Assembly: GCA_017859745.1 (NCBI GenBank)
Contig: JAFMML010000023.1
Coordinates: forward strand, 6,491-46,672
Source of the DNA: Planctomycetota bacterium
GTDB lineage: Bacteria; Planctomycetota; Phycisphaerae; Phycisphaerales; SM1A02
Direction of reading: 5' to 3'
Length of the DNA stretch: 40,182 nt
A model generated the notes under the pieces. It saw only the letters and a program-made list of their open reading frames with translations. It was not told where the DNA came from and searched no databases. The position numbers and the translations under genes are program-made. Of the stretch, positions 3,001 to 36,627 are shown piece after piece; positions within the stretch are counted from its first letter, which is position 1, and each line of letters begins with the position of its first letter.

Positions 3001-3099
3001 GGCTTCGTCGCCGGCGCTCCCGTCGGCCCGCGCAGGTGCCGACGGGGAGGCGATCGTGACGGGTTCGGGGCGGCGCAGGAACCGCTCGAAGATGCCCAT
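94..3099 (-). CDS. putA: Bifunctional proline dehydrogenase / L-glutamate gamma-semialdehyde dehydrogenase
   Basis: A 1001-residue cytoplasmic enzyme that oxidises proline to glutamate in two steps. The FAD-dependent proline dehydrogenase barrel covers about residues 120-460, with signatures IKISSLYAA (221-229), VRLVKGAYWDYE (319-330) and YVPVGEM...YLVRRLLENTSN (429-452). The aldehyde dehydrogenase half covers about 530-985, with PWNFPLAICCG (651-661), FTGSKAVG (727-734), the EMGGKN glutamate E757 and catalytic Cys791 in FGFAGQKCSACSR. The DNA-binding ribbon-helix-helix domain of trifunctional PutA is absent, so it should not repress its own gene. The ATG at 3099 is preferred because 32 further upstream codons look non-coding. 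No strong Shine-Dalgarno is visible; an AGGA lies about 14 bases upstream. It is divergent from fabI. Confidence 0.93.
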   Translation of the reverse strand: MGIFERFLRRPEPVTIASPSAPARADGSAGDEAAILEAGRELLERSGRNKAGVLSGAYWSDALMNWSMKDEAFKVQLFRFVDAFPTLKTSEQVHDHLEDYLSQPGVTLPPGLGVGLKAGGLAKGLVAKTMSGRIEGMASNFIAGRNASDALPKLERLWKRGYAFSVDLLGEACVSHAEADAYRHKYLDLVENLHETVSAWAPNPRLDSDHLGPIARTNVSIKISSLYAATDPIDFEGSLRGLVAAVRPVLEAAADRGVFVNFDMEQRSLKDLTIELFKRCCDEVEFEGGIAMQAYLRSGDEDARNLAEWSVRRDRPVTVRLVKGAYWDYETIHAEQMGWPVPVWSRKRDSDACFERMSRILLDATPRSTGRGGIKLALGSHNARSIAAALAHLDRLGLPRNAIELQMLYGMGDELKAATAEMGLRLREYVPVGEMIPGMAYLVRRLLENTSNESWLRAGFADGATPDMLLASPHGDAARDPGLAALDEAPRRHHLSPAVPGVGDGQPFFNESMRDFADPAQRTAFGAAVETCTLPEVAIDATEQDADRALDAAHRAFPSWRDTPFATRADVLVKAADAMRRRRDELSGIVVRESGKTWREADADVCEAIDFCEFYARTAAELFAPQRIGRFVGELDEQWHQPRGVAAVISPWNFPLAICCGMTAAALVTGNTAIVKPAEQTPAIARILCEILWAAGCPREVLHFVPGPGETVGARLVRDRRTAIIAFTGSKAVGLDILQAAGVTPEGQPFVKKVVCEMGGKNALIIDASADLDEAVLGVRHSAFGFAGQKCSACSRAIVLESCHDEFLHRLVESTRTLVVGDPLAPGTDVGPVIDEDAARKIREYVEIGRREGVVEIELPVPEGLAEKVGKPFVGPTVVSGIRREHRLANEEVFGPVLAVIKVKDFDEALEVANATDYKLTGGVFSRKPAHLERARRDFRVGNLYLNRGITGALVARQPFGGFGLSGVGSKAGGRDYLHQFVEPRAVCENTMRRGFAPGLE

Positions 3100-3285
3100 G
3101 TGAGAGATTCGGTCCTGGAGGTTGTGGACGGACGCGAGAGGCGGCGAGTATAGGCGTCGGCACCGACCGATCCGGGGCGTTGCGGTACTCTCCACGGCTT
3201 GCGCGGCGGGCCGACGTGGACCGCCGCGTCCGGCGAGGGCTCCGGGCGAGCCCGATCCGGACCCGAACCGCCGAGGAGATCATTC

Positions 3286-19076: not shown

Positions 19077-19250
19077 TTCGAGGTGAGGGCCCGCTCGCTC
19101 GAAGATCGCCCGATCCGACGAGCCGGCGTCTCCGTGGTCGGTGCGGTGGTTCCCTCCGGGGACGGCGATCGACGATCCGAATGGTCGGCGCGGATCGTCC
19201 TAGGTGGATCCGGCTCGAAGCCCGCCATCCGACGGCAATCTCGTACCCTT

Positions 19251-19268
19251 AGGGCCTCGCGGCCCTTT
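19251..19268 (+). terminator. Hairpin terminator or leader hairpin before the rha operon
   Basis: AGGGCC-TCGC-GGCCCT is a perfect 6-bp stem with a four-base loop, followed by TT and then C. It lies 175 bases after the cysQ stop and 83 bases before the rhaI start. It may end cysQ transcription or act in the rha leader. The remainder of 19077-19351 shows no gene. Confidence 0.42.
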
Positions 19269-19338
19269 CAGGAAAGTGGCCGCAGGCCGACCCGTCGCCG
19301 ACGTCGATGCGATCGGCCGGTCCATCGCGTCCCCTGCT

Positions 19339-19343
19339 CGAGG
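19339..19343 (+). promoter_or_regulatory. Ribosome binding site that decides the rhaI start
   Basis: CGAGG eight bases before GTG 19352 favours that codon over the in-frame ATG 19307, which has no ribosome site and would add 15 residues absent from the fold. Confidence 0.5.
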
Positions 19344-19351
19344 CCATCGCC

Positions 19352-20533
19352 GTGACCGACCTGCCTGCCGCTCTGCTCGCCCGTCTCGAGCGTCTCGAGA
19401 TCGAGTTGCCCTCGTGGGGGTTCGCAGACACCGGCACCCGCTTCGGCAAGTTCCTGCAGGACGCCGCGGCGCTCTCGCTCGAGGACAAGCTCGACGACGC
19501 CGCCGAGGTGCATCGGGTGACCGGGGCCTGCCCGAAGCTCGCGGTCCATGTGCTGTGGGACGTCCCCGAGGGCGGTGCTCGAGCACTCTCGGAGGCGGCG
19601 GCCGCACGAGGCCTGCGGATCGGATCGATCAACCCGAACGTGTTCGAGGATCAGCAGTACCGCTTCGGTTCGGTCGTCAACGAGGATCCCGCGATCCGCC
19701 GTCGCGCGATCGATCATCTGCTCGACTCCGTCCGTCTCGGCGCGGCCGTCGAATCGGACGTGCTGACGCTCTGGTTCGCGGACGGGACGAACTATCCCGG
19801 ACAAGGCGACGTGATCGAACGCAAGCATCGCATGCAGTCGGCGCTGCGAGAGGTGCACGACGCGATGCCGGCGTCGATGCGGATGCTCGTCGAGTACAAG
19901 CCGTTCGAGCCGGCGTTCTATCACACCGACATCGCCGACTGGGGCATGGCGGCCGCGTTCGCGCGGCACGCCGGTTCCAACGCCCGGGTGCTCGTGGACA
20001 CGGGTCACCATCTTCCGGGGCAGAACATCGAACACGTGGTCGCCTTCCTCGCCGACGAGGGACTGCTCGGGGGATTCCACTTCAACGACTTCCACTACGC
20101 CGACGACGATCTGACCTCCGGATCGATCGATCCCTACCGGCTGTTCCGGATCCTGCTCGCGATCGTCGAGGCGGAGGCGCGTCGCGGCGGCGATCTCGGT
20201 CTCGAGTTCATGGTGGACCAGTCCCACAATCTGAAGCCGAAGATCGAGGCGATGATCCAGACCGTGACCACGGTGCAGGAGCTCTTCGCCAAGGCGCTGC
20301 TGGTCGATCTCGATGCGCTTGCCGACGCCCGACGACGCTGCAACGTCGTCGATGCGGAGAACCGCCTTCGCGACGCGTTCGCGACGGACGTACGGGACGG
20401 TCTCGCGGCATGGCGGCAGGCTCGGGGCCTGCCCGGCGATCCGCTGACGGCCCATCGGGACGGCGGCTACGCCGCGAGGGCCTCCGAGGATCGCCGTGGT
20501 CGGAAGCCCGCGTCGGGAGGTTCCTACGCGTGA
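19352..20533 (+). CDS. rhaI: L-rhamnose isomerase, Pseudomonas stutzeri (RhaI) type
   Basis: A 393-residue TIM-barrel isomerase converting L-rhamnose to L-rhamnulose. The match to the RhaI family (not E. coli RhaA) is seen in PSWGFADTGTRF (20-31), DGTNYPGQ (144-151), EYKPFEPAFYHTDIADWG (181-198), VDTGHH (215-220), GFHFNDFHYADDD (241-253), IDPYRLF (259-265) and MVDQSHN (287-293). The metal ligands are expected to be Glu181, Asp216, His243 and Asp289. The family can act on several rare aldoses, but the rha neighbours make rhamnose the likely substrate. It is the first gene of the operon; its TGA overlaps the rhaB GTG. Confidence 0.93.
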   Translation: MTDLPAALLARLERLEIELPSWGFADTGTRFGKFLQDAAALSLEDKLDDAAEVHRVTGACPKLAVHVLWDVPEGGARALSEAAAARGLRIGSINPNVFEDQQYRFGSVVNEDPAIRRRAIDHLLDSVRLGAAVESDVLTLWFADGTNYPGQGDVIERKHRMQSALREVHDAMPASMRMLVEYKPFEPAFYHTDIADWGMAAAFARHAGSNARVLVDTGHHLPGQNIEHVVAFLADEGLLGGFHFNDFHYADDDLTSGSIDPYRLFRILLAIVEAEARRGGDLGLEFMVDQSHNLKPKIEAMIQTVTTVQELFAKALLVDLDALADARRRCNVVDAENRLRDAFATDVRDGLAAWRQARGLPGDPLTAHRDGGYAARASEDRRGRKPASGGSYA

Positions 20534-22044
20534 CCGCCCGGCGGCATCTGGCCATCGATCTCGGCGCGTCGAGCGGGCGGGTGATCGAGGTTCGCGTCGA
20601 TCCCTCCGCGACCGATGCGGTCGTCGCGGTCGAACGGCATCGCTTCGCCAATGGTCCGGTCCAGCGCGTCGGCGAGGACGGATCCCGCTTCGAATGGCCG
20701 TGGTCGCGCATCGTGTCCGAGGTCGGCGAGGGACTCGCGGCGGCCGCGACCGCGGCGGACGGCCTCGTCGACTCGATCGCCATCGACTCCTGGGCGGTGG
20801 ACTACGGCCTGCTCGACGAGCATGGCGAACTCGTCGCGCCGGTGGCCGCCTACCGCGACCCCCGCACCCGCGAGGCGTTCGAGCGGGTGCGTTCGGAACT
20901 CGGCGACGAGACGCTCTTCGAAGCGACCGGCATCCAGTTCCAGCCCTTCAACACGATCTACCAACTCGCCGCCGATGCGGCGGATCCGGCGCGCGGTCTC
21001 GATCGGGCCCGACGACTGCTGATGGTCCCGGATCTGCTGGCGCACGACCTCTGCGGCAGCACCGTCGGCGAACGCACCAATGCGAGCTCGACCCAGATGC
21101 TCGACGGCGAAGGCCGGTGGATCGACCGATTCGTTCGGGCGATCGGCATCGATCCGTCGATCCTGCCGACGCTCGTCGAGCCTGGATGCCCCGAGCCTCT
21201 GGGCCGGCTCCGATCCGAGGTCGCCCAAGCCACGGGACTGTCGTCCGGCACACCATTGCTCGCCACGGCGACGCACGACACCGCCAGCGCCGTCGCGGCC
21301 GCTCCGATCGATGACGCCACGGACGTCTACATCTCGAGCGGGACCTGGTCGCTGATCGGCATCGAAGGCGACGTCGCGGTGTCCGGCGAAGATGCCCGAA
21401 CGGCCAATCTCACCAACGAGCACGGCGCCTTTGGAAGCGTTCGAACGCTGTTCAACATGGCCGGACTCTGGCTGCTGGAGGAGAGCCGCCGGGCGATCGC
21501 CGAGTCTGGCCGTCCGAGCGATCTTGCGACGCTGCTCGCCGCCGCCGAGGACGCGCCGCCGTGGAGTTGCGTCTTCGATCCCGACGACGCCCGCTTCGCG
21601 ACGCCGGGCGACATGCCCGCCCGTGTTCGCGAGATCTGCCTCGAGCACGGCGAGACGCCGCCGTCGGACGACGCCGGACTGGTTCGCTCGATTCTGGAGA
21701 GCCTCGCGCTGGCGACGGCTCGGGCGATCGATCGCCTCGCGAGGCTGTCGGGGCGCCGGCTGCAGCGCGTGGTGGTCGTCGGCGGCGGCAGCCGGAACGA
21801 ACGTCTGAACCGCTGGATCGCCGATGCGTCGGGTCTGCCGGTCGAGACCGGCCCGGTCGAGGCGACGGCGATCGGCAACGGATTGCTGCAGTTCGCGTCA
21901 CTGGAGGGGATCTCCGACCTTGCGACGCTGCGGGAACTCGTGCGACGATCGTGCCGACCTCGTCGCTTCGAACCCTCGACGTCGTCCGCGGCGATCGACG
22001 ATGCCCGCGCCCGCTTCGCCGCGCTCGCCGACCGGTCGTTCTGA
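20530..22044 (+). CDS. rhaB: L-rhamnulokinase
   Basis: A 504-residue FGGY-family sugar kinase that phosphorylates L-rhamnulose at C1 with ATP. It has the N-terminal phosphate-1 loop AIDLGASSGRVIE (8-20), DSWAVDYGLLD (86-96), ISSGTWSLIGIE in the ATPase core and the C-terminal VVVVGGGSRNERLNRW with ETGPVEATAIGNGLLQ. These match rhamnulokinases rather than glycerol or xylulose kinases. The start is GTG 20530, with GGGAGG nine bases upstream, and it overlaps the rhaI stop as GTGA, so translation is probably coupled. It lies between rhaI and rhaEW, matching the order of the pathway. Confidence 0.94.
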   Translation: MTARRHLAIDLGASSGRVIEVRVDPSATDAVVAVERHRFANGPVQRVGEDGSRFEWPWSRIVSEVGEGLAAAATAADGLVDSIAIDSWAVDYGLLDEHGELVAPVAAYRDPRTREAFERVRSELGDETLFEATGIQFQPFNTIYQLAADAADPARGLDRARRLLMVPDLLAHDLCGSTVGERTNASSTQMLDGEGRWIDRFVRAIGIDPSILPTLVEPGCPEPLGRLRSEVAQATGLSSGTPLLATATHDTASAVAAAPIDDATDVYISSGTWSLIGIEGDVAVSGEDARTANLTNEHGAFGSVRTLFNMAGLWLLEESRRAIAESGRPSDLATLLAAAEDAPPWSCVFDPDDARFATPGDMPARVREICLEHGETPPSDDAGLVRSILESLALATARAIDRLARLSGRRLQRVVVVGGGSRNERLNRWIADASGLPVETGPVEATAIGNGLLQFASLEGISDLATLRELVRRSCRPRRFEPSTSSAAIDDARARFAALADRSF

Positions 22045-22086: not shown

Positions 22087-24270
<2,184 letters not shown>

Positions 24271-24697: not shown

Positions 24698-27600
24698 TCA
24701 GGCCGCGGACCAGCGATCGACGACGGCACGCAGATCCCGTTCCTCGGGAACGCGATCCCCCGACTCCGGACCGAACCACGTTCGTTCGAGGCGATCGATC
24801 TCGGCTCGCAGGGATCGGCTTCGCTCGTCCCCGAGGCTGGCGCCCCGTTCGGACTCGAGACGCCGCAGGCTGGTGACCACGCCGAGCGGGGTCAGCCGCG
24901 CCGGTGCCCAGGTCCGGCCGGCGTCGTCGGTCGCCGCGGGCCGCCGACGCAGGATCGCCATCGCCACGCCGGCGACGAATCCCGCGAGCACGATCGCCAG
25001 CACCAGGCGCACCGGCGACCAGAAGCCGACGGTCAACGGAACCCGATCGCCCTCGACCGGCATGATGTCGAGGTCGTCGTAGAACCGACTGACGACGGCG
25101 CCGTCGAACTCTCCCGACAGCGTGGGCATGGTGAACGCGTCTCCGACGGGGGCGCCCGTCGGGCGATAGACGATTCGCACGGTCTGTTCGATGGGAAGAC
25201 GGTAGACGCCGTTCTCGTCGGGTTCGGGATAGCCGCCCGCAGGAGCCACCGGACCGCCCATCCGCATCGTCATCGGCGTCGTCGCCCCGCTGCCGTCGCT
25301 GACGACGATCGGCGGGTCGATCTCGATGCCGTCCTCCGCGATCTCGAAGCCCGCCAGCGATGTGTCGAGGCCGCGCAGCGCCTCGCGCACGTCCGGCAGG
25401 ACGCCTTCGCCGCGGAGGCGCAACTCGAGGGTCACCGGTTCGCCGTCGCCCTCGACGAGGCCGCGGACGTCGACGACCTGATCGATCTCCAGGTTGCGGC
25501 AGGGACGGGTGGTGCGATCCTCGCCGCCGGCGATCAACGGCGTGTTGCTGGCGATGCCGAGGGTGACCGGGCCGGTCTGATCGGTGAACTGCATGTCCAT
25601 CGCGACCTCGGGAACGGTGTCGATCGCGGCGTCGCGACGCCGCAGCACCAGATAGGCCAGCGGCTTCTCCATCCAGCCCTCCTGGTTCTCCTCGACCACG
25701 CCGCGAGCGGGCATGAAGGCGTCGAAGAAGCCGATCGCGTCGATCTCGAACCGGTCTCCGAAGGCGTCGCGGATGGTCTTCTCCAGATCGTCGCGGTAGT
25801 TGACCACCCGGAACTGGTTGCCGACCCGCGCGTAGACCCCGTTCTGCAGGTACTTCCCGAAGCCGCCGGTCTCGCGGTCGACCGCGTGGGTGAACCGCAG
25901 CGAGAGCATCGCTCCGAAGGGTTCGTCCACGCCGACGCGATCGTCGCCGTCGATGGCGAGTCGAAGCTTGATCTCGTCCCTGACGAGATCCCGGTAGAGC
26001 TCCTGCATCGCCCGAAGACTCGCTCCGGCGGGGTGGTCGCCGATGATTCGAAGCGCGTGACGGACGAGGCGAGGCTTCACTTCGGGCGTGGCCCGGCCGA
26101 CGGCCTGCTGCACGTCGTTGGCGAAGGCCGTCTTGTGGCGATCGCGAGCCTCGGGCTCGAACGCGTCGAAGGCGTTGCGGATGAGATCGATCTGGTCGTC
26201 CTGAAGGGTGCCCTCGCGGGGCAGGTCGTCGGGCCGCAGGAAGTTGAGCTCGGCGGTGCCCATGGCGGCGCCGAACCAGCGCCGCAGCACCGACGGGTCG
26301 TCGCGGGTCTCGCCGCGTTCGAGCGACTCGCGATACCGGCGGGCCGCATCGGCGAACGCCGAGAAGGCGTCGCGTCGGTAGGCGTCGAAGGTCTCCGGAT
26401 CGGGGCCGCCGGAGATCGATTCCTGGAACTGGAGGCGGTCGTAGGTCAGCGCCGCGGCGAGCACGGCGAGATTCCAGGCGTCGGGACGCTGGGCCAGGGC
26501 CGCGTCCATGAGTTCGATGGCGACGCCGTACCCCCGGTCGACGAGTTGCGCGATCTCGTCGTCGCTGCGGCGATTGCCACCGGCCCGCTGGGCCTCTCGA
26601 TTGCGCCAGTCGCCGTTGAGACTGGCCGCCATCGACGCCGCAAGGCGCGCCGCCGTCGGCGCCGGGATCTCCGCGATCGGGCCGAACACCCGCTCGAGAT
26701 CGGCGCGGTCGTAGACCTCGGTGCGGGCGTGGCAGCCCTGGAACGCCGGCACGATCGCGGGCAGTCCGCGGGGATCGACGCCGCTCGCGGCGAGGGTCTC
26801 CATGACCATGTCGAGGCGATCGAGGTTGCGTCGCTGCCGGCCTCGGGTGAGCGGCGCCGTCGGCATGGCGTCGCGGTAGAACGCGTAGAAGCTCGCGGTC
26901 TGGGCGTCGAGGTTCGAGTTGGGCGCGAGGCGGCGGATCCACGACGAGAGGAAGTGGTCCCCGTATCCCGCGGCGCCGAAGCGATCCGCCGCGATCGAGT
27001 CCTCGAGCAGTTCGATCGCGCGATCGGTCTCGTCGCAGGTCATGGCGATCGAGATCGCGGCCTTGCGGGCCCGGGTCGCGAGGCTCGGTTCGAGCGAGGA
27101 GAGCCAGCGTTCGCTGGGGATGGCGTTGAACAGCGAGGTGGCGCCGGCGCCGACGAACTGTCGGCTGCCCTGCTTCTCGGCGGCCTGCTCCATCTCCGCG
27201 ACGAGCGCCGTCGTCACCATGCGCAGGGGCACCCTCAGAGCGCCGGCGGCGAGTTCGGCGGCGACCTCGTCGCGACTCAGCAGCAGATCGATGGCCTCCT
27301 TGAGGTTGAGCACGGCGCGAGCCCGCTCCGCCTCGTCGGTCTTGCGGTCGCCGATCGAGGCCGCGGCGAGCGCCAACTGCTCGAGGGCCGCAGGGCCGAG
27401 GCCGGAGTCGGCGAAGACCAGTTCGAGCCAAGGTTCGGTACGGGCCCGCGGGGTGGAGTCGACCAGTTCGATCGCCCGGGCGAGCGCCTGCCGACGCTCG
27501 TCGGTGTCTCCACCTTCGAGCAGGGCGGCTTCGGCGAGGATGTCGAACGCCTCGAGGCGCAACCCGTCGGCGCGGGGGCCCTCGCCCGCCTGCTCGGCGA

Positions 27601-28711
27601 GATCGAGACGATTGCGGGCGTGCACGATCATGAGCGCCACGTCCTGCTCGAGGCGAGCCTGTTCGAGCGGCGGCAGGAAGAGCGCCGCTTCGGCGACGAG
27701 GCCCGCCCCGGCGAGGAAGTCGATCGTTCGGCGTCGGCGCTCGGGATCGCTCGTGCCGAAGTAGCGGGTCTCGCCGCGCAGCGCGGCAAGAAGCAGGCTG
27801 GTGCCGTTGCGAGCCGCCGAGGTCTCGAGCATGCCCACGAGCGCCTTCATCTGCCAGTCCTTGAAGTCCGACGGAGCGCTCTCGGCGAGGGCCAGGATCT
27901 CCTCCGGGAGCAGGCCCGCATCGCCGCGGTTGATCGACTGCAGCACCGCGGCGTAGACCGGCTCGGCCTCGGCCTCGGGACGGCTTGCGAGAAATCGGCC
28001 GAGCAGTTCCCACTCGCCGGCCATGGTGTGCAGATGCACCCACTCGGCGATCTCGTCCTCCTCGGCGGCGTCGGCGTCCGGGAAGGGCCGCCCTCCGAAG
28101 CCCAGCGTCGACCGAGCCGACAGCACCGCCTCGGGGGTGCGGGTGAACTTCAGGTTGCGCATCGCCCGAACGATCTGCTGGCCGCGCCGGGTGCTTGCAG
28201 AGCGTTCCGCGGCGAGACCGAGGGCGTCCTCGAGCTCGACCTCGAAGTCCTTGTAGTACGCCCGCATCGAGGCCTGCCCATCGGGATCGAGGACGAGATA
28301 GATCGCCTTCAGCTCGACGATCTCCTCGGGCGAGAAGGGCGGCGCCTTCGAGCCGGCCTGCGACGCGTCCGCCGGTGCATCCGGCGCCGAGTCGGGGCGA
28401 CCGTCGTCGCCGGCTCCGGTGTTCGGCGGCGCAACGTTCGAAGGCGCGGCGACCTTCGTCTCGGCGGCCGGTGCCGTTCTCGCGGGGGTTGCCGGGCGAA
28501 TCGGCACGACCGGCTGCGCCGGGACGAGACGTTGTGCGGGCACGGCGGCGCCGCCCGAGGCCTGGGGATCGGCCGATGCCGTCGCGGCAAGGGTCGTCGC
28601 CACGACCATCGGAACGAGTCCCGCCGCCGATCTTGATCGTCGGCGGTCGGGACGCTTGGAAGAAGTCTCGGTCGTGGCGTGGATCAGACGTCGGATCGCG
28701 GGGACGTTCAT
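24698..28711 (-). CDS. Giant BatD-like membrane-anchored periplasmic protein
   Basis: A 1337-residue protein of unassigned function. It begins with a charged N-region and the hydrophobic segment AAGLVPMVVATTLAATASA (29-47), followed by a Pro/Ala-rich linker to about residue 125. Residues about 125-1080 are mainly helical, leucine/alanine-rich and repeat-like. About 1090-1230 is beta-rich with VTLELRLRGEG and IEQTVRIVYRPTG, reminiscent of BatD repeats. A membrane helix VRLVLAIVLAGFVAGVAMAI follows near 1235-1255, with an 80-residue cytoplasmic tail. It is last in the MoxR/Bat operon, the usual BatD position. ATG 28711 has GGAG six bases upstream and is preferred over GTG 28723. BatD homology is inferred from topology and short motifs. 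Confidence 0.82.
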   Translation of the reverse strand: MNVPAIRRLIHATTETSSKRPDRRRSRSAAGLVPMVVATTLAATASADPQASGGAAVPAQRLVPAQPVVPIRPATPARTAPAAETKVAAPSNVAPPNTGAGDDGRPDSAPDAPADASQAGSKAPPFSPEEIVELKAIYLVLDPDGQASMRAYYKDFEVELEDALGLAAERSASTRRGQQIVRAMRNLKFTRTPEAVLSARSTLGFGGRPFPDADAAEEDEIAEWVHLHTMAGEWELLGRFLASRPEAEAEPVYAAVLQSINRGDAGLLPEEILALAESAPSDFKDWQMKALVGMLETSAARNGTSLLLAALRGETRYFGTSDPERRRRTIDFLAGAGLVAEAALFLPPLEQARLEQDVALMIVHARNRLDLAEQAGEGPRADGLRLEAFDILAEAALLEGGDTDERRQALARAIELVDSTPRARTEPWLELVFADSGLGPAALEQLALAAASIGDRKTDEAERARAVLNLKEAIDLLLSRDEVAAELAAGALRVPLRMVTTALVAEMEQAAEKQGSRQFVGAGATSLFNAIPSERWLSSLEPSLATRARKAAISIAMTCDETDRAIELLEDSIAADRFGAAGYGDHFLSSWIRRLAPNSNLDAQTASFYAFYRDAMPTAPLTRGRQRRNLDRLDMVMETLAASGVDPRGLPAIVPAFQGCHARTEVYDRADLERVFGPIAEIPAPTAARLAASMAASLNGDWRNREAQRAGGNRRSDDEIAQLVDRGYGVAIELMDAALAQRPDAWNLAVLAAALTYDRLQFQESISGGPDPETFDAYRRDAFSAFADAARRYRESLERGETRDDPSVLRRWFGAAMGTAELNFLRPDDLPREGTLQDDQIDLIRNAFDAFEPEARDRHKTAFANDVQQAVGRATPEVKPRLVRHALRIIGDHPAGASLRAMQELYRDLVRDEIKLRLAIDGDDRVGVDEPFGAMLSLRFTHAVDRETGGFGKYLQNGVYARVGNQFRVVNYRDDLEKTIRDAFGDRFEIDAIGFFDAFMPARGVVEENQEGWMEKPLAYLVLRRRDAAIDTVPEVAMDMQFTDQTGPVTLGIASNTPLIAGGEDRTTRPCRNLEIDQVVDVRGLVEGDGEPVTLELRLRGEGVLPDVREALRGLDTSLAGFEIAEDGIEIDPPIVVSDGSGATTPMTMRMGGPVAPAGGYPEPDENGVYRLPIEQTVRIVYRPTGAPVGDAFTMPTLSGEFDGAVVSRFYDDLDIMPVEGDRVPLTVGFWSPVRLVLAIVLAGFVAGVAMAILRRRPAATDDAGRTWAPARLTPLGVVTSLRRLESERGASLGDERSRSLRAEIDRLERTWFGPESGDRVPEERDLRAVVDRWSAA

Positions 28712-28796: not shown

Positions 28797-29702
28797 TCAC
28801 CAGCCCGCTCCGATCTCGCCGTTCATGCCGGCGCCGCGGGCGGGTTGCTCGCCCTGGTTGCGGCCGCGGCGTCCGGGACGGAGTTCCTGTCCGAGACCCT
28901 GCCCGGTGCCGGTGGGCGACTGTCGGGGTCTGGGAAGGAAGGCGAGTTCCTCGCGGGAACTCTGCTCGAGGTTCAGGACCAGTTCGGTGTTGCGCTGGTG
29001 GTCTGCCAGACGCTGCGCATCGCCGTCGGCGGAGGCGGCGTGTTCGGCGAGGTAGCGGAAGTTCTGCCGCGCCAGCGAGGCGATCGGACGCCATTCGGGC
29101 CCGGCCTTGCCGCCAAGGCGCATGAGTCTTGCGCCGTAGTAGTACGCGGTGGCGAGCTCCTCGCGGGCCGCGATCGCCAGGGGCGAGGTCGCTTCGCCGG
29201 CGTCGCCGAGATCGAGCAGCAGGTCCTCGAGTTCGTTCGCGCCTCGGCCGATCTCGCCCGAGCGGACCAGCGCTCGCGAGCGGGCGAGGCGTACTCGTTG
29301 GGCGATCTCTCGAGTGGTGGTGCCGGGCATCGTTCCACCCGCGGGAGGCTCGAGCACGGACACGGCCTCCTCCAGCAGCGCCGCGGTGCGCGACCACGCG
29401 GCCTCGGCCACCGTCGCGGCGGCGTCTTCACGCTCGCCGGCGGTCGACGCGGCGGCGCGACGCACGGGGTCTTCGACGGCGAACGCCGCGGCCCGGGCCT
29501 CGATCGCCTCCAGATGCGCCTCGTAGGCCAGGTCCTGCAGTTCGATCGCCTCGCGCTCGGCGTTGACGGCGAGGGCGACGATCGCGGCGGCCCGATCCCG
29601 CCTCAGGGCCGCCTGACCGGGGCCGAAGTGGAACGCGAGCACCGCGATGGGCACCAGCGCCCACGCCGTCCACGCGGCGCGTCGAAGGAGCGGCGGACTC
29701 AC
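28797..29702 (-). CDS. BatC-type membrane-anchored helical protein
   Basis: A 301-residue protein with an N-terminal membrane anchor (AAWTAWALVPIAVLAFHF), a long alanine- and glutamate-rich helical region containing probable TPR-like pairs (ATAYYYGARLMRLGGKAG), and a Gly/Gln/Arg-rich low-complexity tail. This layout and its place between the two VWA proteins and the BatD-like gene match BatC. Bat proteins are linked to aerotolerance and envelope integrity in Bacteroides and spirochaetes; the function here is unknown. The start is GTG 29702, overlapping the upstream stop as GTGA, with GGGAGG six bases before it. Confidence 0.78.
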   Translation of the reverse strand: MSPPLLRRAAWTAWALVPIAVLAFHFGPGQAALRRDRAAAIVALAVNAEREAIELQDLAYEAHLEAIEARAAAFAVEDPVRRAAASTAGEREDAAATVAEAAWSRTAALLEEAVSVLEPPAGGTMPGTTTREIAQRVRLARSRALVRSGEIGRGANELEDLLLDLGDAGEATSPLAIAAREELATAYYYGARLMRLGGKAGPEWRPIASLARQNFRYLAEHAASADGDAQRLADHQRNTELVLNLEQSSREELAFLPRPRQSPTGTGQGLGQELRPGRRGRNQGEQPARGAGMNGEIGAGW

Positions 29703-30766
29703 GAGGAGCCTCCCGAGGCGATCGCCACGCTCGGTACGCTCGGTACGCTCGGTACGGCGGCGGCGGCGTTGGCAGCGGCGTTCTGGGCGGATCGACGCAA
29801 CGCCCTCGGCGTGCCGAACCGGACGAGCAGCGGACCGACGAGGCCGAGCATCGACGCGCCGATCGCGAAGGCGAACAGGCCGAGCTCGCGCATGCCGATG
29901 GCGTCGGCGACCCGCGGCGCGATCATGGTCAGTCCGTCGAGGATCTCGCGGGGCAGGTGCCGGGTGTTGCCCTGGTGGTAGATGCCGCCGAGCCTCGCAG
30001 CGAGCGACTTCAGGGTCCACTGATCCTGTCGCGAGGCGTGGCCGGAGATGGTGGTGGCGCGGTTCGGATCGCCCACGCCGATCACGATGGCATCCGCGAT
30101 CGAGGCCGGACGCGGCCCGGGCGACACCGGCGTCGACAGGTCGCCGTCGGTGATCACCACCAGCGTCGTCGAGCGCCGCGGCCAGGGCATCGCCATCTCG
30201 TACGCGGCGTCGAGACCCGCCTGCAGATCGGTCTCGCCCGGGGTGAAGGCGGTGTAGAGCGGCAGGCCGTCCATGAGGTTCGCGATCAGTTCCTTGTCGG
30301 TGGAGTCGCGCAGCATCGGCACCGCCTTCGTGTAGCAGGCGATCATCCCGACGCGGGTGTCCTGCATGTCGAGACGGTCGAGGATGCCGCGCAGGACCCT
30401 GCCCGCCCAGACGCCGCGCATCGTCTTCTCCTCGCCGGGACCGGCGTCGGCGAGGTTCATGCTCGGGCTGACGTCGAGCACGACGAGGAGTTGCCGCGAA
30501 GCGCGGGGATTCGGCTCGGTGTCGACCTCGATCGGATCGAAGCGAAGCAGGACCACGGCGCCGAAGGTCGCCAGCCCCATGCCGGCCACGCGGGCCGCCG
30601 GCGCCAGCCTCGCCCATGCCGCAGGACGACCTCCCGGGCCGAAGGCGAGCCTCGCCACTCGCGAGACGCGTCGGGCATGCCGCCACTCCGCCGCCGCCAC
30701 GACCAGCGCGGCGAGGGCGCCGGCGAGGATCGCGACGAGGAGATCGGGCGTCGCCTCGGTCACCAT
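29699..30766 (-). CDS. VWA-domain membrane protein, BatB type
   Basis: A 355-residue protein with two N-terminal membrane helices (about 9-27 and 57-75), a von Willebrand A domain with MIDAS motif DVSPS (98-102), and a C-terminal helix (LGLFAFAIGASMLGLVGPLLV). The VWA domain would face the periplasm and bind a divalent metal and a partner protein. The C-terminal tail VPSVPSVPSV is encoded by a 9-base tandem repeat. ATG 30766 overlaps the BatA-type stop by seven bases, with GAGG eight bases upstream. Confidence 0.88.
   Translation of the reverse strand: MVTEATPDLLVAILAGALAALVVAAAEWRHARRVSRVARLAFGPGGRPAAWARLAPAARVAGMGLATFGAVVLLRFDPIEVDTEPNPRASRQLLVVLDVSPSMNLADAGPGEEKTMRGVWAGRVLRGILDRLDMQDTRVGMIACYTKAVPMLRDSTDKELIANLMDGLPLYTAFTPGETDLQAGLDAAYEMAMPWPRRSTTLVVITDGDLSTPVSPGPRPASIADAIVIGVGDPNRATTISGHASRQDQWTLKSLAARLGGIYHQGNTRHLPREILDGLTMIAPRVADAIGMRELGLFAFAIGASMLGLVGPLLVRFGTPRALRRSAQNAAANAAAAVPSVPSVPSVAIASGGSS
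29727..29753. repeat. Three tandem copies of a 9-base unit
   Basis: ACGCTCGGT is repeated exactly three times and followed by ACG. It lies in frame at the 3' end of the BatB-type gene and encodes the V-P-S repeats of its tail. Being in frame, unit gain or loss would only change the tail length. Confidence 0.9.
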
Positions 30767-31662
30767 GGCGTGTACCTCGCGAAGCAGAGACCGATCCCGT
30801 GCAGGCCGAGCAGGACGAGCCCCGCGATCGCGAACGGACCGAACTCGTCGAGCGGCACGGTGCCTGCGGGTTCGAAGCGGGCGGGCTTCATGCGATCGAT
30901 GTGGCGAAAGATCGCGTCGAGGCGCGAGGAGTCGCTCGCGGCGAACGCCTCGCCGCCGGTGGTTTCGACGAGATCCTCGACGTCGGCGGGCACGCCGGTT
31001 TCGGCGATGTGGACGTGGTAGACGACGATGCCGTCGTCGGCGAGCTCCTCGCCGATCGCGAACGCCTCGCCGCCACCGAGATCGGCGCTGAATCCGTCGG
31101 AGACGAGCACGATCATGCGATCGCCCGAGTCGGTCTCGGCGAGCATGTTGCGGCGGCAGAAGCGCAACGCCGAGCCGATCATCGTGCCGCCCATGTGCGA
31201 GGGCTGGTTGCGCGGATCGGCGAACGGCAAGGCGTCGCGGATCGCCTGAAGGTCCTTGGTCAGCGGCATCCAGCGGATCTGCTCGACGCCGAAGAGGGTC
31301 AGTCCGAACGCGTCGCCCTCGCGGGCGCGGGTGAAGTCCTCGATGGCCTGCGCGGCCAGTTCGTAGTTGCGGCCGGTCATGCTGCCGGAGACGTCGAGGC
31401 AGATCTGGATGTTGGTGAGCGACCGTTCGCGACGCGGCTGCTGCAGCGTCTGCGGGCCCGCAAGCACCACGATCGCCGTGGCGAGCAGCATCAGCGGAAC
31501 CATGTCGAAGACCCCCAGCGTCGCCTGCAGCGCCCGGCGAGGCGGCGGGTCGGGGCCATGGTCGAAGGGCACCACGACGCCGGGGCGTCGAGAGATCGCG
31601 GTCCACGCAAGCAGCACCGGAATCGCGAGCAGCAGCAGGACCCAGGGATGCAGGAACGTCAC
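30760..31662 (-). CDS. VWA-domain membrane protein, BatA type
   Basis: A 300-residue protein with two N-terminal hydrophobic helices (LHPWVLLLLAIPVLLAW at 4-20 and MVPLMLLATAIVVLAG at 54-69), a VWA domain with a perfect MIDAS start DVSGS (90-94), and a C-terminal helix FAIAGLVLLGLHGIGLCF. Downstream VWA features include GGTMIGSAL and IVLVSDGFS. This is the BatA architecture. The start is GTG 31662, overlapping the upstream TGA as GTGA, with GGAGA seven bases before it. Confidence 0.9.
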   Translation of the reverse strand: MTFLHPWVLLLLAIPVLLAWTAISRRPGVVVPFDHGPDPPPRRALQATLGVFDMVPLMLLATAIVVLAGPQTLQQPRRERSLTNIQICLDVSGSMTGRNYELAAQAIEDFTRAREGDAFGLTLFGVEQIRWMPLTKDLQAIRDALPFADPRNQPSHMGGTMIGSALRFCRRNMLAETDSGDRMIVLVSDGFSADLGGGEAFAIGEELADDGIVVYHVHIAETGVPADVEDLVETTGGEAFAASDSSRLDAIFRHIDRMKPARFEPAGTVPLDEFGPFAIAGLVLLGLHGIGLCFARYTPW

Positions 31663-32483
31663 GGCCGGGTCTCCGTGCGCACGGCGCCGGTGACGCGATC
31701 GAGCGCCTCGTCGCGACGGCGCTCGCCGTCGGCGACGTGAAGCCACCGCTCGACCGCCCGAACGACCGAGGCGGAGGCGGGCTCCCTTCTGAGCCGGGCG
31801 GTCGCTTCGGCGAGATCGCCCGCGCCGGGAGCCGCGTCGCGCAGGGCCTGAAGGAGCAGCAGTTCGAACCGACCCCGCTCCGCGACGTCGAGCGGTCGTG
31901 CCTTCGCCTCCTCGAGCAGGGTTCGCACCCGCTCGAGCGGCGAGGGCGGCGGCGGCTCCGGCGCGGGGGCCGGGGGCGGTCGGCGAAGCAGTCTTCGCGA
32001 GATCGCGACGACCGGCACCGCGAGCCAGACGAGGCCCAAGACCCACAGTGCGGCTCGGTAGCGACCCTCGAATCCAAGCGTCGGTTCGGGCAGGCCGTAG
32101 AGATCGGTCGTGGGGTTCGGCGGCAGCTGCGTGTAGATCTCGACCGGCATCGGCGGCAGGCCTTCCGGCGGTCGCCCGTCGGCCTGCTCGAGCAGTGGAA
32201 GCAGATCGAACTCGCCCTCGACGACCCCGAGATACTCCACGCGATGCCGGTGGCGAGGCCCGCCGAGCGGCGCGACGCGAACGAGGATCGGCGCGTTGCC
32301 GTCGCGGAGCGCCTTGGCACGAAGCGGCCCTGCAGGATGCTCGACCTCGATGGTGGCGATCGTGCCGCGGGGGACTCTCGTCGCCTGCGTGGCCGATGGC
32401 GTGGTCTGCGCACCGGTCGCCGGCGGCGAAGGCGCGCAGGCGATCGCAAGCAGCAGCGTCGCAGCGAGGACTCGCGGCGTCAT
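31659..32483 (-). CDS. Exported single-pass membrane protein of the Bat-type operon (DUF4381-like)
   Basis: A 274-residue protein with an N-terminal signal (VLAATLLLAIACAPSPPATG, possibly a lipobox at C16), a roughly 120-residue beta-rich periplasmic part, a membrane helix (ALWVLGLVWLAVPVVAI) and then a proline-rich stretch and helical cytoplasmic tail. Small proteins of this topology commonly lie between DUF58 and the VWA genes in MoxR operons; a DUF4381-like assignment is by position and layout only. Its ATG overlaps the DUF58 stop (ATGA) and its stop overlaps the BatA-type GTG. Confidence 0.75.
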   Translation of the reverse strand: MTPRVLAATLLLAIACAPSPPATGAQTTPSATQATRVPRGTIATIEVEHPAGPLRAKALRDGNAPILVRVAPLGGPRHRHRVEYLGVVEGEFDLLPLLEQADGRPPEGLPPMPVEIYTQLPPNPTTDLYGLPEPTLGFEGRYRAALWVLGLVWLAVPVVAISRRLLRRPPPAPAPEPPPPSPLERVRTLLEEAKARPLDVAERGRFELLLLQALRDAAPGAGDLAEATARLRREPASASVVRAVERWLHVADGERRRDEALDRVTGAVRTETRP

Positions 32484-33397
32484 CCGCGCCCCCTTCGACT
32501 GGCGCCGCGGGCGGCGAGGAACCGGCGCAATGGGGGAATGAACGGGCGATCGACGACGAGGCGCAGCACGTCGGCGCCGGAACGCAGCAGGTCGCCGCGG
32601 GTGCGTTCGAGGTCGACGAGGGCACGGCGTCCCGAGGCGATGAACGTCCGACCGGTCTCGGCCTCGCGGGCCCGCAGCACGCCCGCTCGCAGCGGGGCGT
32701 GTTCGGCGGGATCGACCAGATGCACCACCGCGCAGTCGTGGCCGCGACTGGTTCGGCGAATCGCCGCGAGCGCCGCGGGATCGTGCAGGTCGCTGATCAC
32801 CATGAAGACGCCCGACCGTTCGGCACGGGTCGTCGCGAGGTCGAGCTGCTCCGCGAGCGAGGTCCGCTCGTCGAAGGCCTTCGCCCGCAGCGGTTCGAGC
32901 GCGGCGTGCAGGTCGCTGCGGGAGAGGCTCGGCAGGGAGGGCACTCGTCGTTCGCCGGCTCCCACCACCGCCACCGGGCTGAGGCGTCGAAGGGCGACCA
33001 GACCGACCGCGGCGGCGATCCAGACCGCCAGATCGTGCTTGGTGCGGGCGGTCGATCCGACCGCCATCGAGGCGCTGGTGTCGACGACCAGATGCACCGC
33101 GGTCCGCTTGAGGGCCTCGTACTCGCGAACGTGGGCCACGCCGGTGCGGGCGGTGCGCCGCCAGTCGAGTTGCCGCACCGGATCGCCGGGTTCGTAGACG
33201 CGGCTTCCCGCGTACTCGAGACCGCTGCCGAGAAGCCGCGACGCGTCGCTGCCGAAGGCGAGATCGTCGGCGAGGCGCCGGATCACCATCTCGAAGTCGC
33301 CTCTGGCCAGTTGCTCGGGCGGCGGCAGACCGAGATCCGTGGCGCCGGTCGTGGCGGCGGCAGCGGTCGTCGAGCGTTCGGTGAACGAGAGGGGCAC
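32480..33397 (-). CDS. DUF58 domain protein
   Basis: A 305-residue cytoplasmic protein with the DUF58 signature YEPGDPVRQLDWRRTART (68-85), followed by a VWA-like domain with a MIDAS-like DTSAS (106-110). DUF58 proteins are nearly always encoded next to MoxR ATPases and are thought to be remodelled or loaded by them, but the biochemical function is not settled. No transmembrane segment is seen, unlike many DUF58 proteins. The start is GTG 33397, five bases after the MoxR stop. The ribosome site is poor, so coupling to MoxR translation is likely. Confidence 0.9.
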   Translation of the reverse strand: MPLSFTERSTTAAAATTGATDLGLPPPEQLARGDFEMVIRRLADDLAFGSDASRLLGSGLEYAGSRVYEPGDPVRQLDWRRTARTGVAHVREYEALKRTAVHLVVDTSASMAVGSTARTKHDLAVWIAAAVGLVALRRLSPVAVVGAGERRVPSLPSLSRSDLHAALEPLRAKAFDERTSLAEQLDLATTRAERSGVFMVISDLHDPAALAAIRRTSRGHDCAVVHLVDPAEHAPLRAGVLRAREAETGRTFIASGRRALVDLERTRGDLLRSGADVLRLVVDRPFIPPLRRFLAARGASRRGRG

Positions 33398-33402
33398 GGC
33401 GT

Positions 33403-34428
33403 TCAGGCGAGGGTCGACAGCAGATCCGAAAGCACGGCCTCCGAGGTCCTGCCTTCGGCGAGGGCCTCGTAGGAGAGGCGCATGCGGTGGAGCATCACGT
33501 CCTCGGCGAGTGCGAAGAGGTCCTCGGGAATGGCGTAGTCGCGGCCGTGGATGAACGCCCGCGCCCTCGAGGCGTGCACGAGGGCGATCGCGGCGCGAGG
33601 ACTGCAGCCGAGCTCGATCTCGCCGTGGGTTCGGGTCAGGTTCACCAGTTCCACGCAGTCCCGGACGAAGACGTCGCTGACGTGCACCGCCTGCACCGCG
33701 GACATCGCCTCGGTGAGATCGCCGAGGTGCAGGCGCTGCGAATCGTCGATCGCGTCGAAGGCCGACATCGGCACGGCGCCCTCGCCTTGTCGCTTCAGCT
33801 TGAGGGCGAGGCTGCGACGGACCACTTCGGTCTCGTCCTCGGGCGTGGGATAGGTCAAGCGGTGCCGAAGCAGGAAGCGGTCGAGCTGGGCTTCGGGAAG
33901 TTCGAAGGTGCCCGCCTGCTCGACGGGGTTCTGGGTGGCGATCACCAGGAACGGCGCCGGCAGATCGTGGGTGGTGTCGCCGATCGAGACGCGGCGTTCC
34001 TGCATCGCCTCGAGGAGGGCCGACTGCACCTTCGGCGAGGCGCGGTTGATCTCGTCGGCAAGCAGCAGGTTGGTGAAGATCGGTCCCTTGTGGATGCGGA
34101 AGGTGCCGGTCGACTGCTCGAGGATCTCGCTGCCCACGATGTCGCTGGGGAGCAGGTCGATGGTGAACTGCACTCGGGCGAACGCGAGGTCGATCGACTT
34201 CGCGACCGACTGCACGAGCAGGGTCTTCGCGATGCCGGGCACACCCTCGAGAAGCAGGTGTCCGCCGGTGAGCAGCGCGATCAGGACCCGCTCGACGACC
34301 GTCTCCTGACCGACCACGGTGCGGGCGACTTCGCGGCGAATGTGGCGGACGAACGGCGCCTCCGGCGTGTCGGCCTCGACGGCCCGTCCAGTCCCTTCGG
34401 TGGTGGCGTTGGAGTCGGCTGGAGTCAC
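33403..34428 (-). CDS. MoxR-family AAA+ ATPase
   Basis: A 341-residue AAA+ ATPase with Walker A GVPGIAKT (62-69), Walker B LLLADEINRA (121-130) and the MoxR signatures VQFTIDLLPSDIVG (86-99), ALLEAMQERRVSIGD and ATQNPVEQAGTFELPEAQLDRF. It probably acts as a chaperone-like partner of the VWA and DUF58 proteins encoded downstream. The start is GTG 34428, overlapping the TGA of the thioredoxin-like gene as GTGA. About 20 residues of non-conserved N-terminus precede the domain, so a later start is possible. Confidence 0.94.
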   Translation of the reverse strand: MTPADSNATTEGTGRAVEADTPEAPFVRHIRREVARTVVGQETVVERVLIALLTGGHLLLEGVPGIAKTLLVQSVAKSIDLAFARVQFTIDLLPSDIVGSEILEQSTGTFRIHKGPIFTNLLLADEINRASPKVQSALLEAMQERRVSIGDTTHDLPAPFLVIATQNPVEQAGTFELPEAQLDRFLLRHRLTYPTPEDETEVVRRSLALKLKRQGEGAVPMSAFDAIDDSQRLHLGDLTEAMSAVQAVHVSDVFVRDCVELVNLTRTHGEIELGCSPRAAIALVHASRARAFIHGRDYAIPEDLFALAEDVMLHRMRLSYEALAEGRTSEAVLSDLLSTLA

Positions 34429-35591
34429 TGGGCGGCCTCCGCGAGCAGGGTCTCGACGAGTTCCGACAACTTGCCGCTGCGAACGCCGGCGCCGCGAACT
34501 CGGCCGTTGCGATCGACGATCACGGTCACGGGCAGGTACTCGACGCCGAAGGCCTGCATGGTGCGGCCGCGGCGGGGGCGGTCGTCGGCTTCGCCGTCGC
34601 TCTCGGGAAGAGCGTCGTGGGCAAGCGGAAGCGGCGTGGCCGCCGTCGCCCCGGGATCCTGCTCGGCGCGGGCCTTCGTGAGGGCGCCTGCCGCCGACCG
34701 GGCCGCCGCCTGCATCGCCGCGAAGTCGGCGTTGGCGTCGCAGACGCCGAGGACGACGACACCCTCCGGGCCGAACCGTTCACGCAGCTCCGTGATCGCC
34801 GCCAACTCCTCGGTCACGAGACGCCCGCCGGGGCGGGTGAAGTGCAGCACCACCGGCATCCCCCCGAACGCCTCGGCGTCCATCGGATCTCCGGACCATG
34901 CCTGCGCCGCGAGGGCCGGCATCGCCTTGCCTTCGGCACGCTTGAGCGAGGCGGGACGATCGCCGCCCCCGAGGAAGAACGCCTCGGCCAGCCCTCCGCC
35001 GGCCGCGCCCGCGGGCGCGGCTTCGGCAAGCAGCATCTCGACCACGCCCTTGACGTGTTGCGGCATCAGACCCGCGGCCCGGACCATGCCTTCGCGATCG
35101 ATCACCACGTAGGTCGGCCAGAACTGCAGCTTGTAGTTCTTGGCGCTGGTGCCGCCGGTCTTGTCGCGGGTGACGGGGTAGTTGATCTTCTTGTCGCGCA
35201 CGACGTCGGCGGCGCGGTCCCAACCGTTGTTGGCGTCGTGCACCCCGATGAAGACGAGGTCGCCGCCCGCCTCCGGTCCGTGCTTCTCGACGAGCTCGAC
35301 GTTCTCCGGAATCGCCCGCATGCAGGGGCCGCACCAGGTCGCCCAGAAGTCGACCACGACCACCTTGCCCTTGGCCGCGGCGAGATCGACCTCCTCGCCG
35401 ATCCAGGAATCGGTCGCCAGGGCGGGTGCGGGCTTGCCTTCGAGGCCCTTGAGGGCGGCGGGGCGATCCTTGCCCGAGTAGAACCACTCGTCGGGGATCG
35501 GCGGGGCGGCCCCAGCGGTCGAGATCAGCGCGGTCGAGGCCAGTGAGGCCGAGACCAGTGAGGCCGAGACCATGAGAGAGAGGATGTTCAT
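34425..35591 (-). CDS. Exported TlpA-like protein with one active and one degenerate thioredoxin domain
   Basis: A 388-residue protein with a signal peptide (1-28, ending STAGA). The first thioredoxin domain (about 38-190) has VVDFWATWCGPC with Cys87 and Cys90, and cis-Pro159 in WPTYVVIDREG. The second (about 207-386) is a duplicate: DRPAALKGLEGKPAPALA (42-59) recurs as DRPASLKRAEGKAMPALA (211-228), and the cis-Pro loop recurs as LPVTVIVDRNG. Its CxxC position reads FTRPGG, so no disulfide chemistry is expected there. It should act in the periplasm as a disulfide reductase or carrier. ATG 35591 lacks a clear ribosome site. It heads the MoxR/Bat operon with a GTGA overlap. Confidence 0.88.
   Translation of the reverse strand: MNILSLMVSASLVSASLASTALISTAGAAPPIPDEWFYSGKDRPAALKGLEGKPAPALATDSWIGEEVDLAAAKGKVVVVDFWATWCGPCMRAIPENVELVEKHGPEAGGDLVFIGVHDANNGWDRAADVVRDKKINYPVTRDKTGGTSAKNYKLQFWPTYVVIDREGMVRAAGLMPQHVKGVVEMLLAEAAPAGAAGGGLAEAFFLGGGDRPASLKRAEGKAMPALAAQAWSGDPMDAEAFGGMPVVLHFTRPGGRLVTEELAAITELRERFGPEGVVVLGVCDANADFAAMQAAARSAAGALTKARAEQDPGATAATPLPLAHDALPESDGEADDRPRRGRTMQAFGVEYLPVTVIVDRNGRVRGAGVRSGKLSELVETLLAEAAQ
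35540..35569. repeat. Two tandem copies of a 15-base unit
   Basis: CCAGTGAGGCCGAGA occurs twice in a row inside the signal-peptide region of the TlpA-like gene and produces the repeated S-A-S-L segment of its hydrophobic core. Confidence 0.9.
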
Positions 35592-35654
35592 GTCGTCATT
35601 GAACCACAGCCGGGCCGGGACGGTTGCCGGAATCGGCCGACCGTTGCAGAGTTG

Positions 35655-35676
35655 TCCGGATCCAGGCCGATCCGGA
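35655..35676. promoter_or_regulatory. Perfect inverted repeat between divergent genes
   Basis: TCCGGATC and GATCCGGA form a perfect 8-bp dyad with a six-base spacer, 63 bases upstream of the TlpA-like start and 51 bases upstream of the zinc-ribbon membrane protein start. It is a plausible operator, but no regulator is known. Confidence 0.4.
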
Positions 35677-35727
35677 TCGGCGTCGGTGTGAGAACGCCTT
35701 CGTCGCGAACATGCGAGGAGTCGGTTC

Positions 35728-36627
35728 ATGTCCGTTTCACGCATTCACCACCCGGCACGCGACCCGGCCCCCGACGCGGACGGCCGGCTCTGGCGTCGCG
35801 GGGTGGTGTTGGCGGGGTTCTTCGCGGCGAGTTGGACGGTGGGCACGCTGGCGTTGGGCGTGGCGATCGTCCTCGTGTCCCTTCTCGACAAGTCCGCGCA
35901 GCCGTGGCACGGGGAGTCCACCGCGATGCCCGTGGGCGCCGTGGCGGGACTCGAGTGGATCGTGGACTCTTCGCTGCTGGTGGTCGAGACGCCGGTCCTG
36001 TTCTTCGTCGTGACCACCATGGCGGTCCTGCAGACGATGCTGCTGGTCCCGCTGGTCGGTCCGCTGCGGATTCGTCCCAACGGGTGGCCCCTGCGGGTCA
36101 GCGTGGTCGGGGCCGCCGGCATCGCGGGGCTTTCGACGGCGATGATCGTCTACGGCGTCATCGAGTTCACGGACGAGTTCTTCAAGACCTCCGTCGCCAG
36201 ACAGGATGCGTGGGAGTGGTTCGCCGTGCTGCTCGCGGTCTGGACGATCGCGGGGGGGATCTGGTGCTGGCTGCTGCGCCGAGCCGGTCGGTCCCGGGAT
36301 CCGCGGGGCCTCGACCGGCTGGTGCGCCTGGTGTTCGCGGCCACCGTCGTCGAGTCGATCCTGATGGTTCCGCTCTACGTGATGCTTCGCAAGCGGTTGG
36401 ACTGCTTCTGTGGAGCCGCCACGTTCATGGGTCTTTGCGGCGGAGTCGCGATGCTCCTCTGGATGTGCGGACCGTGGGCGCTGCTGCTGCTGACCCGGCG
36501 CCGTCGCGAGGCCTGGTCGGTCGGCGCCTGCGCCGGCTGCGGCTACTCCCGTCTGGGCGGTGGCGATCGGTGTCCGGAGTGCGGTGCGGCGTACCCGAGC
36601 GCCGTCGCCGACGCTACGCCCGATTGA
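35728..36627 (+). CDS. Polytopic membrane protein with C-terminal zinc ribbon
   Basis: A 299-residue protein with about six hydrophobic segments and a short C-terminal cytoplasmic zinc ribbon, CAGCGYSRLGGGDRCPECGA (near 270-290), giving two Cys pairs. A CxxCGY...CPECG tail on otherwise unrelated membrane proteins is a pattern I associate with planctomycetes; the role is unknown. No enzymatic motif is visible in the membrane part. AGGAG seven bases before ATG 35728 fixes the start. Its end overlaps the tspO end by 14 bases, tail to tail. Confidence 0.85.
   Translation: MSVSRIHHPARDPAPDADGRLWRRGVVLAGFFAASWTVGTLALGVAIVLVSLLDKSAQPWHGESTAMPVGAVAGLEWIVDSSLLVVETPVLFFVVTTMAVLQTMLLVPLVGPLRIRPNGWPLRVSVVGAAGIAGLSTAMIVYGVIEFTDEFFKTSVARQDAWEWFAVLLAVWTIAGGIWCWLLRRAGRSRDPRGLDRLVRLVFAATVVESILMVPLYVMLRKRLDCFCGAATFMGLCGGVAMLLWMCGPWALLLLTRRRREAWSVGACAGCGYSRLGGGDRCPECGAAYPSAVADATPD

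Follow-up and report, generated by a model that had tools for sequence, protein, structure and literature searches.

Bat operons are described, in the portions of two papers drawn on here, as having no clearly established function (PMC3557215, PMC5700661). In the same excerpts, the Bat proteins have been proposed to form a membrane-associated complex (PMC3557215), and the VWA domain of a BatA-like Borrelia protein is reported to face the periplasm (PMC5700661). For the NorQD system, the abstract reports that the force of the AAA+ protein on a linker enables metal insertion (PMC13036017). We analysed a stretch of 40,182 nucleotides (the window) from the Planctomycetota bacterium assembly GCA_017859745.1 (contig JAFMML010000023.1), which carries a MoxR/Bat-like operon, and we focus on the last gene of this operon, encoding a very large protein that we call the giant. 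The listed open-access titles and abstract beginnings contained no description of the giant or of a second planctomycete Bat operon.

We suggest, at a probability of roughly 55%, that the giant is the envelope-facing subunit, in the BatD slot, of a second planctomycete MoxR-Bat-like membrane machine with the coupling mechanism set out below. The suggestion is based on the operon order, the predicted domain layout and the joint inheritance of the giant with one MoxR subclass.

The window operon consists of eight genes in the order redoxin/TlpA-like, MoxR, DUF58, P274, VWA1, VWA2, P301 and giant, where P274 and P301 are names coined in this analysis from the protein lengths.

34425..35744, minus strand: redoxin/TlpA-like protein, PF08534 in two stretches, overlapping the MoxR start.
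33403..34428, minus strand: MoxR AAA+ ATPase of a distinct subclass, PF07726 at E 5e-63.
32480..33397, minus strand: DUF58 protein, PF01882 at E 4.6e-34.
31659..32483, minus strand: P274, a small protein in the DUF4381-like position, with a mid-protein hydrophobic stretch seen by eye.
30760..31662, minus strand: VWA1, a VWA protein with hydrophobic stretches in the BatA position, PF13519 at E 5.2e-14.
29699..30766, minus strand: VWA2, a VWA protein with hydrophobic stretches in the BatB position, PF13519 at E 2.2e-05, just under the cut-off.
28797..29702, minus strand: P301, in the BatC/TPR position, with an N-terminal hydrophobic stretch seen by eye and without a Pfam match.
24698..28711, minus strand: the giant, an open reading frame of 1337 amino acids from the ATG at 28711 to the stop at 24698, with relatives found and no Pfam or NCBIfam match.

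The genes are closely packed, with overlaps of 4 or 7 bases at five of the seven junctions, a gap of 5 bases between MoxR and DUF58, and the giant start 85 bases downstream of P301. The reading frame and the gene order agree with the original prediction, made from the window sequence, of a 1337-residue last gene of a MoxR/Bat operon. A second operon is present in the same genome on contig 48, with the order MoxR, DUF58, a weakly DUF4381-like gene, a BatA-type VWA gene, a further VWA gene, a TPR gene and BatD. Since this canonical operon has the same order of kinds of genes, the giant sits in the slot of BatD. The contig-48 MoxR is 43-46% identical to the window MoxR, and the true BatD (on stretch L122) has 629 amino acids and matches PF13584 at E 2.4e-18. 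The giant is not the BatD of its genome, because the true BatD exists on another contig. Replacement of BatD by the giant was rejected as well: among the 61 genomes scanned for BatD, five of which (G441-G445) were left out of the giant search, 11 of the 13 giant-positive genomes also have BatD.

The giant reading frame is protein-coding beyond reasonable doubt, judging from its 23 relatives in public contigs, 19 of which aligned with the window giant at 40-74% identity, the other four being fragments. These relatives were found in one single-sequence scan of public bacterial contigs and are titled metagenome-assembled Planctomycetota or unnamed bacteria, some of the titles looking mislabelled. 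With start codons picked by rule in both sets, the giants have 1201-1596 amino acids (median 1316, n=40, including L002 and L017, which are truncated at the contig start) and the real BatD proteins 567-639 (median 613, n=23), so that the giant is, as predicted, far larger than the usual BatD; the start codon of the longest giant, L100, was probably assigned too early.

The giant profile was searched in Planctomycetota genomes and detected the giant in 36 of the 201 genomes of the order and in 27 of 246 sampled genomes of the phylum, which are not independent because of shared ancestry. In the phylum sample the giant occurs in two families of the order and in 11 families from elsewhere, all of these in other classes. 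The giant is therefore patchy across planctomycetes and not specific to the source lineage, and the lineage specificity that the original prediction had proposed is wrong at the level of the genus and the order. The giant searches scored two to three candidates per genome, and the absences rest also on a survey of MoxR.

The MoxR survey demonstrated that the giant travels with its own MoxR subclass. The window MoxR query had a match of 64-100% identity (E <1e-130) in 35 of the 201 order genomes; all the others among the matches listed were at most 54% identical, with E of about 1e-87 or weaker. A MoxR of at least 64% identity was present in 35/36 giant-positive and 0/165 giant-negative genomes of the order. 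The sole giant-positive genome without it is G081, where the contig starts in front of DUF58. In the phylum sample, MoxR of at least 63% identity was found in 29 of the 246 genomes, including all 27 giant-positives; in the two additional genomes, the first part of the giant runs off the contig (G400) or the contig ends 721 bases after P301 (G239).

The module as a whole recurs across many Planctomycetota. Among 23 close loci, 12 have the complete order MoxR-DUF58-P274-VWA1-VWA2-P301-giant preceded by the redoxin gene, and 11 are cut by contig ends. The complete seven-gene order was found in 13 of the 20 distant loci, and two more have it without a detected P274. Of the five remaining distant loci, two carry the giant ahead of MoxR, one of these lacking a detected P274 and P301 on a contig that ends after VWA2; one locus is rearranged, and two have only P301 and the giant together. 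In both of the latter genomes (G303 and G364) the matching MoxR is on another contig, in G303 followed by DUF58, P274, VWA1 and VWA2. The simplest reading of this distribution is that the module has been lost and gained as a unit, and the joint inheritance fits the predicted role of the giant as a scaffold working with the VWA proteins.

In L082, L098, L099, L083/L132 and L084 the module is permuted or divided between two places, and both MoxR and the giant are kept in the genome. Such loci are useful for separating functional from merely positional linkage.

The other subunits have the motifs of a MoxR-VWA system. The Walker A motif was found in 35 of 37 MoxR loci and Walker B in 34 of 37, using our own patterns; the two Walker A misses are partial genes and the three Walker B misses are not. 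The DxSxS part of the metal-ion-dependent adhesion site (MIDAS), which is the only part covered by the count, was present in VWA1 in 38/40 loci, in VWA2 in 41/42 and in DUF58 in 36/38. As read from the sequence, an Arg-rich loop connects two N-terminal hydrophobic stretches in each of VWA1 and VWA2, and by the positive-inside rule their VWA domains would lie outside the inner membrane.

P301 and P274 recur with the module across the phylum, though neither had a Pfam or NCBIfam match reaching the cut-off. No profile similarity was detected between P301 and the TPR protein of the canonical operon; likeness of P274 and P301 to the DUF4381-like and TPR proteins of that operon was rejected at a profile comparison of <1%, the canonical side being a single sequence. 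None of the seven module proteins matched PADLOC at E up to 0.001, which gives no indication of a known defence system. With the module genes and TlpA masked, no cluster of additional genes recurred beside the module in more than 5 of 35 stretches.

The redoxin/TlpA-like gene is probably accessory to the module. It adjoins MoxR in L100 and in 12/12 close relatives whose contigs extend far enough; the remaining 19 distant stretches and L134-L136, some of which are of the same order, had no detected copy. Its presence in close relatives hints, no more, at redox-sensitive envelope proteins.

The anatomy of the giant was predicted with AlphaFold2 from a 24-row alignment (residues 138-1337, 1200 residues; mean predicted local distance difference test, pLDDT, 79.3; predicted template modelling score, pTM, 0.48), and residues 880-1337 were modelled separately (pLDDT 76.7, pTM 0.61). 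The relative placing of the solenoid and the immunoglobulin (Ig)-like domains is unreliable because the pTM is low. The features of the giant are as follows.

28568..28711, minus strand: export-signal-like segment, residues 1-48, seen by eye as a basic stretch, a hydrophobic run and an ending ...ASA/DP.
28301..28567, minus strand: Pro/Ala-rich linker, residues 49-137, with 45% P+A over residues 49-130, poorly conserved.
25982..28300, minus strand: predicted irregular alpha-solenoid, residues 138-910, from the AlphaFold2 model, helix statistics and generic solenoid matches.
25517..25975, minus strand: first predicted Ig-like beta domain, residues 913-1065, from the model, fold comparison and conservation.
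25070..25504, minus strand: second predicted Ig-like beta domain, residues 1070-1214, from the model and fold comparison, with a low-confidence loop.
24950..25015, minus strand: predicted single membrane helix, residues 1233-1254 (about), from the model and hydrophobicity, followed by basic residues.
24704..24889, minus strand: predicted three-helix tail, residues 1275-1336, from the model, weakly BatD-like by profile.

Export of the giant is suggested by the signal segment read by eye, and hydrophobic N-termini occur in many of its relatives. In the model, residues ~138-910 (~770 residues) form 36 helices of at least 7 residues, with 72% helix, no strand and a mean start spacing of 21.5 residues, that is, ~43 residues per helix pair. 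The all-helical region expected from the sequence alone was thus recovered, with modelled bounds narrower than the proposed 125-1080 and some 770 rather than ~950 residues; the expected beta region is also present, begins at ~913 rather than ~1050 and comprises two domains. For the membrane helix and C-terminal tail the original description holds, and 36 of the 40 giants have a hydrophobic stretch that lies 77-106 residues from the C-terminus, the other four being under the threshold. The basic residues after the membrane helix suggest that the tail is cytoplasmic. The most conserved motif is RETGGF..YL.N (residues 946-957), within the first predicted Ig-like domain.

Family searches with the giant were negative. 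At E up to 1 the window giant matched no Pfam or NCBIfam family, and in a scan of 20 members five families matched one member each at E 0.09-0.26, which we took as chance. No TPR or HEAT family was among the matches of these 20 members at E up to 1. A search of PDB sequences with the giant profile gave no match at E up to 1. The same database gave none at E up to 0.01 for the BatD of the same genome, so there was no solved BatD on which to superpose the giant. The only PHROGs match (E 0.071) was also taken as chance. Assignment of the giant tail to Pfam DUF4129, which is weakly present in the tail of the genome's own BatD under the cut-off, was rejected, since none of the 20 members matched it.

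Fold comparison of the solenoid retrieved generic alpha-solenoids (importins, TPR proteins, separase) with a best Z of 10.6, below the level of ~13 that the tool states for helical repeats, so that the similarity may mean only a common arrangement. The helical solenoid suspected originally is thus borne out as a prediction, with generic fold matches and no TPR, HEAT or other family assigned. The two predicted Ig-like sandwiches (residues 34-186 and 191-335 of the 880-1337 model) resembled antibody-type domains at Z 5-6 over ~85-110 residues each; no row reached Z 8, and these assignments are a shape match only. The fold-search lists were filled with solenoid and antibody Ig rows, and neither a BatD-like nor any other specific fold was prominent among them.

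Two other explanations start from the helical region. The solenoid might be a structural tether spanning the periplasm to the outer membrane or the wall, with MoxR and the VWA proteins regulating its own assembly and not that of a client. The predicted length of ~770 residues would suit such a tether, and Foldseek listed, among many generic solenoids, the periplasmic flagellar scaffold 9hmf_K (E 6.9e-3) and LbcA 7rqf_A, a lipoprotein-binding partner (E 7.5e-3); importins and other unrelated solenoids match at least as well, and the family scans of the giant detected no peptidoglycan- or outer-membrane-binding family, which leaves the tether quite improbable. Alternatively, the helical part could hide an enzyme or cofactor-binding domain too diverged for the profile libraries. 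Strongly conserved residues over the 40 sequences, e.g. PLTR 620-623, H661, WR 702-703 and RE.GGF 946-951, speak for a hidden domain; given that no family or solved structure matched by sequence and the fold matches are solenoid and Ig-like only, we regard it as very improbable.

The relationship of the giant to BatD was analysed by profile comparison with hhalign. The modelled C-terminal layout is BatD-like, with two Ig-like domains, one membrane helix and a helical tail. The 40 giants compared with the 23 BatD proteins at full length gave a probability of 7.7%, with the beta region, membrane helix and tail aligned in their proper order, versus 0.3% for a reversed BatD control against the full giant. 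With the sides exchanged the probability was 17% over the membrane helix and tail, other cuts of the giant including the tail gave 12-18%, and the tail without the membrane helix gave 23-29%. The score of the latter was 24.0, versus a best of 16.9 in 400 column shuffles. The end of P274 was similar to the membrane helix and tail of the giant at a probability of up to 75%, and to those of BatD at 42%.

Values of ~99% for the full 40-row giant alignment against P274, P301 (over 26 columns only) and BatD were rejected as artefacts. This alignment has 12 columns beyond the end of the window protein, and after cutting at the ends of the window protein the probabilities fell to 10%, 0.4% and 17% and the scores to 36, 22 and 41, from 162, 141 and 163, respectively. 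One shuffled control scoring 131.8 was discarded, as it looks like the same hhalign failure and the 400-shuffle repeat topped at 16.9.

Several results weigh against the giant as a BatD-like subunit of one coherent machine. The BatD family PF13584 matched none of the 20 giant members scanned, in contrast to what had been expected of the C-terminal region. Windows of the giant solenoid starting at 580-620 (3 of 38) score 19.5-21.1 against the BatD tail, close to the 24.0 of the real tail, and the tail match could therefore reflect a widespread helical pattern. When the membrane helix is left out, the P274-giant match falls to 3.7%. The Ig regions compared with BatD reached 3.4-9% when the first domain was part of the comparison, slightly above shuffles, and residues 1040-1230 gave 0.3%, below the best shuffles. 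The cluster is also split or reordered in 5 of 20 distant loci (L082, L083, L084, L098, L099).

The missing PF13584 match, the near-null similarity of the Ig regions, the solenoid stretch scoring nearly as high as the tail and the dependence of the P274 match on the membrane helix would all suit a giant that is not a BatD descendant, being instead an unrelated anchored solenoid recruited to the end of a Bat-like operon, its layout a convergence of common features. We consider this origin unlikely, though the most serious of the three alternatives, given that one genome has the giant and BatD in equivalent positions of two parallel operons, that the tail match lies in the right place and above 400 shuffles, and that membrane helix and tail are weakly similar among the giant, P274 and BatD. 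Descent of the giant from BatD is, from these comparisons, probable if unproven. The giant is BatD-like in slot and layout and is not a member of PF13584; of the BatD position and BatD-like C-terminal third proposed originally, the position and layout stand, while PF13584 is absent and the profile similarity is weak and lies mainly in the tail.

For the giant as the BatD-slot subunit of a second machine, we suggest the following mechanism, by analogy with known systems. MoxR hexamers and the DUF58 VWA protein would work on the cytoplasmic side and dock there on the tails of the giant and of P274; the MIDAS domains of VWA1 and VWA2 would lie across the inner membrane, on its outer face. On that face the giant would offer its two Ig domains and 770-residue solenoid as a surface to which a client, or the VWA domains, could bind. 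Remodelling driven by ATP may then be passed via the membrane helix, leading to assembly or maturation of an envelope complex. MoxR and DUF58 would thus be placed inside, the VWA domains, Ig domains and solenoid outside, with the tails as couplers.

The Planctomycetota envelope is unusual, and the module bears on it. A broader hypothesis, which we offer tentatively and at somewhat less than even odds, is that Planctomycetota possess a second membrane machine of the MoxR-VWA type, whose seven genes are gained and lost together and whose defining part, a ~140-kDa subunit composed of solenoid, Ig domains, membrane helix and tail, passes AAA+ work outward from the cytoplasm to a client beyond the inner membrane. 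With its large, conserved subunit predicted to face outward and its clear-cut presence or absence within one order, the parallel module provides a tractable route to the client, and lets one ask how a cytoplasmic AAA+ protein acts across the membrane.

Other genes were identified in the window. The gene at 22087-24270 (plus strand), which faces the operon end, encodes a two-domain protein with class II aldolase and short-chain dehydrogenase domains, and the open reading frame at 19204-22044, upstream of it, matches FGGY carbohydrate kinase, because of which the two genes probably form a sugar catabolism cluster. A PutA-like proline utilisation protein with N-terminal, proline dehydrogenase and aldehyde dehydrogenase domains is encoded at 94-3195 (minus strand).

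Compared with known systems, the giant shares the arrangement of stacked helices with generic alpha-solenoids (importins, TPR superhelices, LbcA), with no sequence match and Z of at most 10.6. The NorQD system likewise combines a MoxR ATPase with a VWA partner, suggesting force-driven remodelling of a target (PMC13036017); in its abstract, NorD is the VWA partner engaging NorQ directly and a giant-like protein does not appear (PMC13036017). The closest counterpart is BatD (PF13584) of the Bacteroides/Leptospira-type Bat operons, which likewise follows the VWA and TPR genes in an operon with MoxR and DUF58 and which the giant resembles in its predicted beta domains, one C-terminal membrane helix, a weakly similar helical tail and probable export. 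The giant differs from BatD in its about twofold length, the extra 770-residue predicted solenoid, the lack of a PF13584 match and its own MoxR subclass, and it coexists with a true BatD in those 11 of 13 giant-positive genomes.

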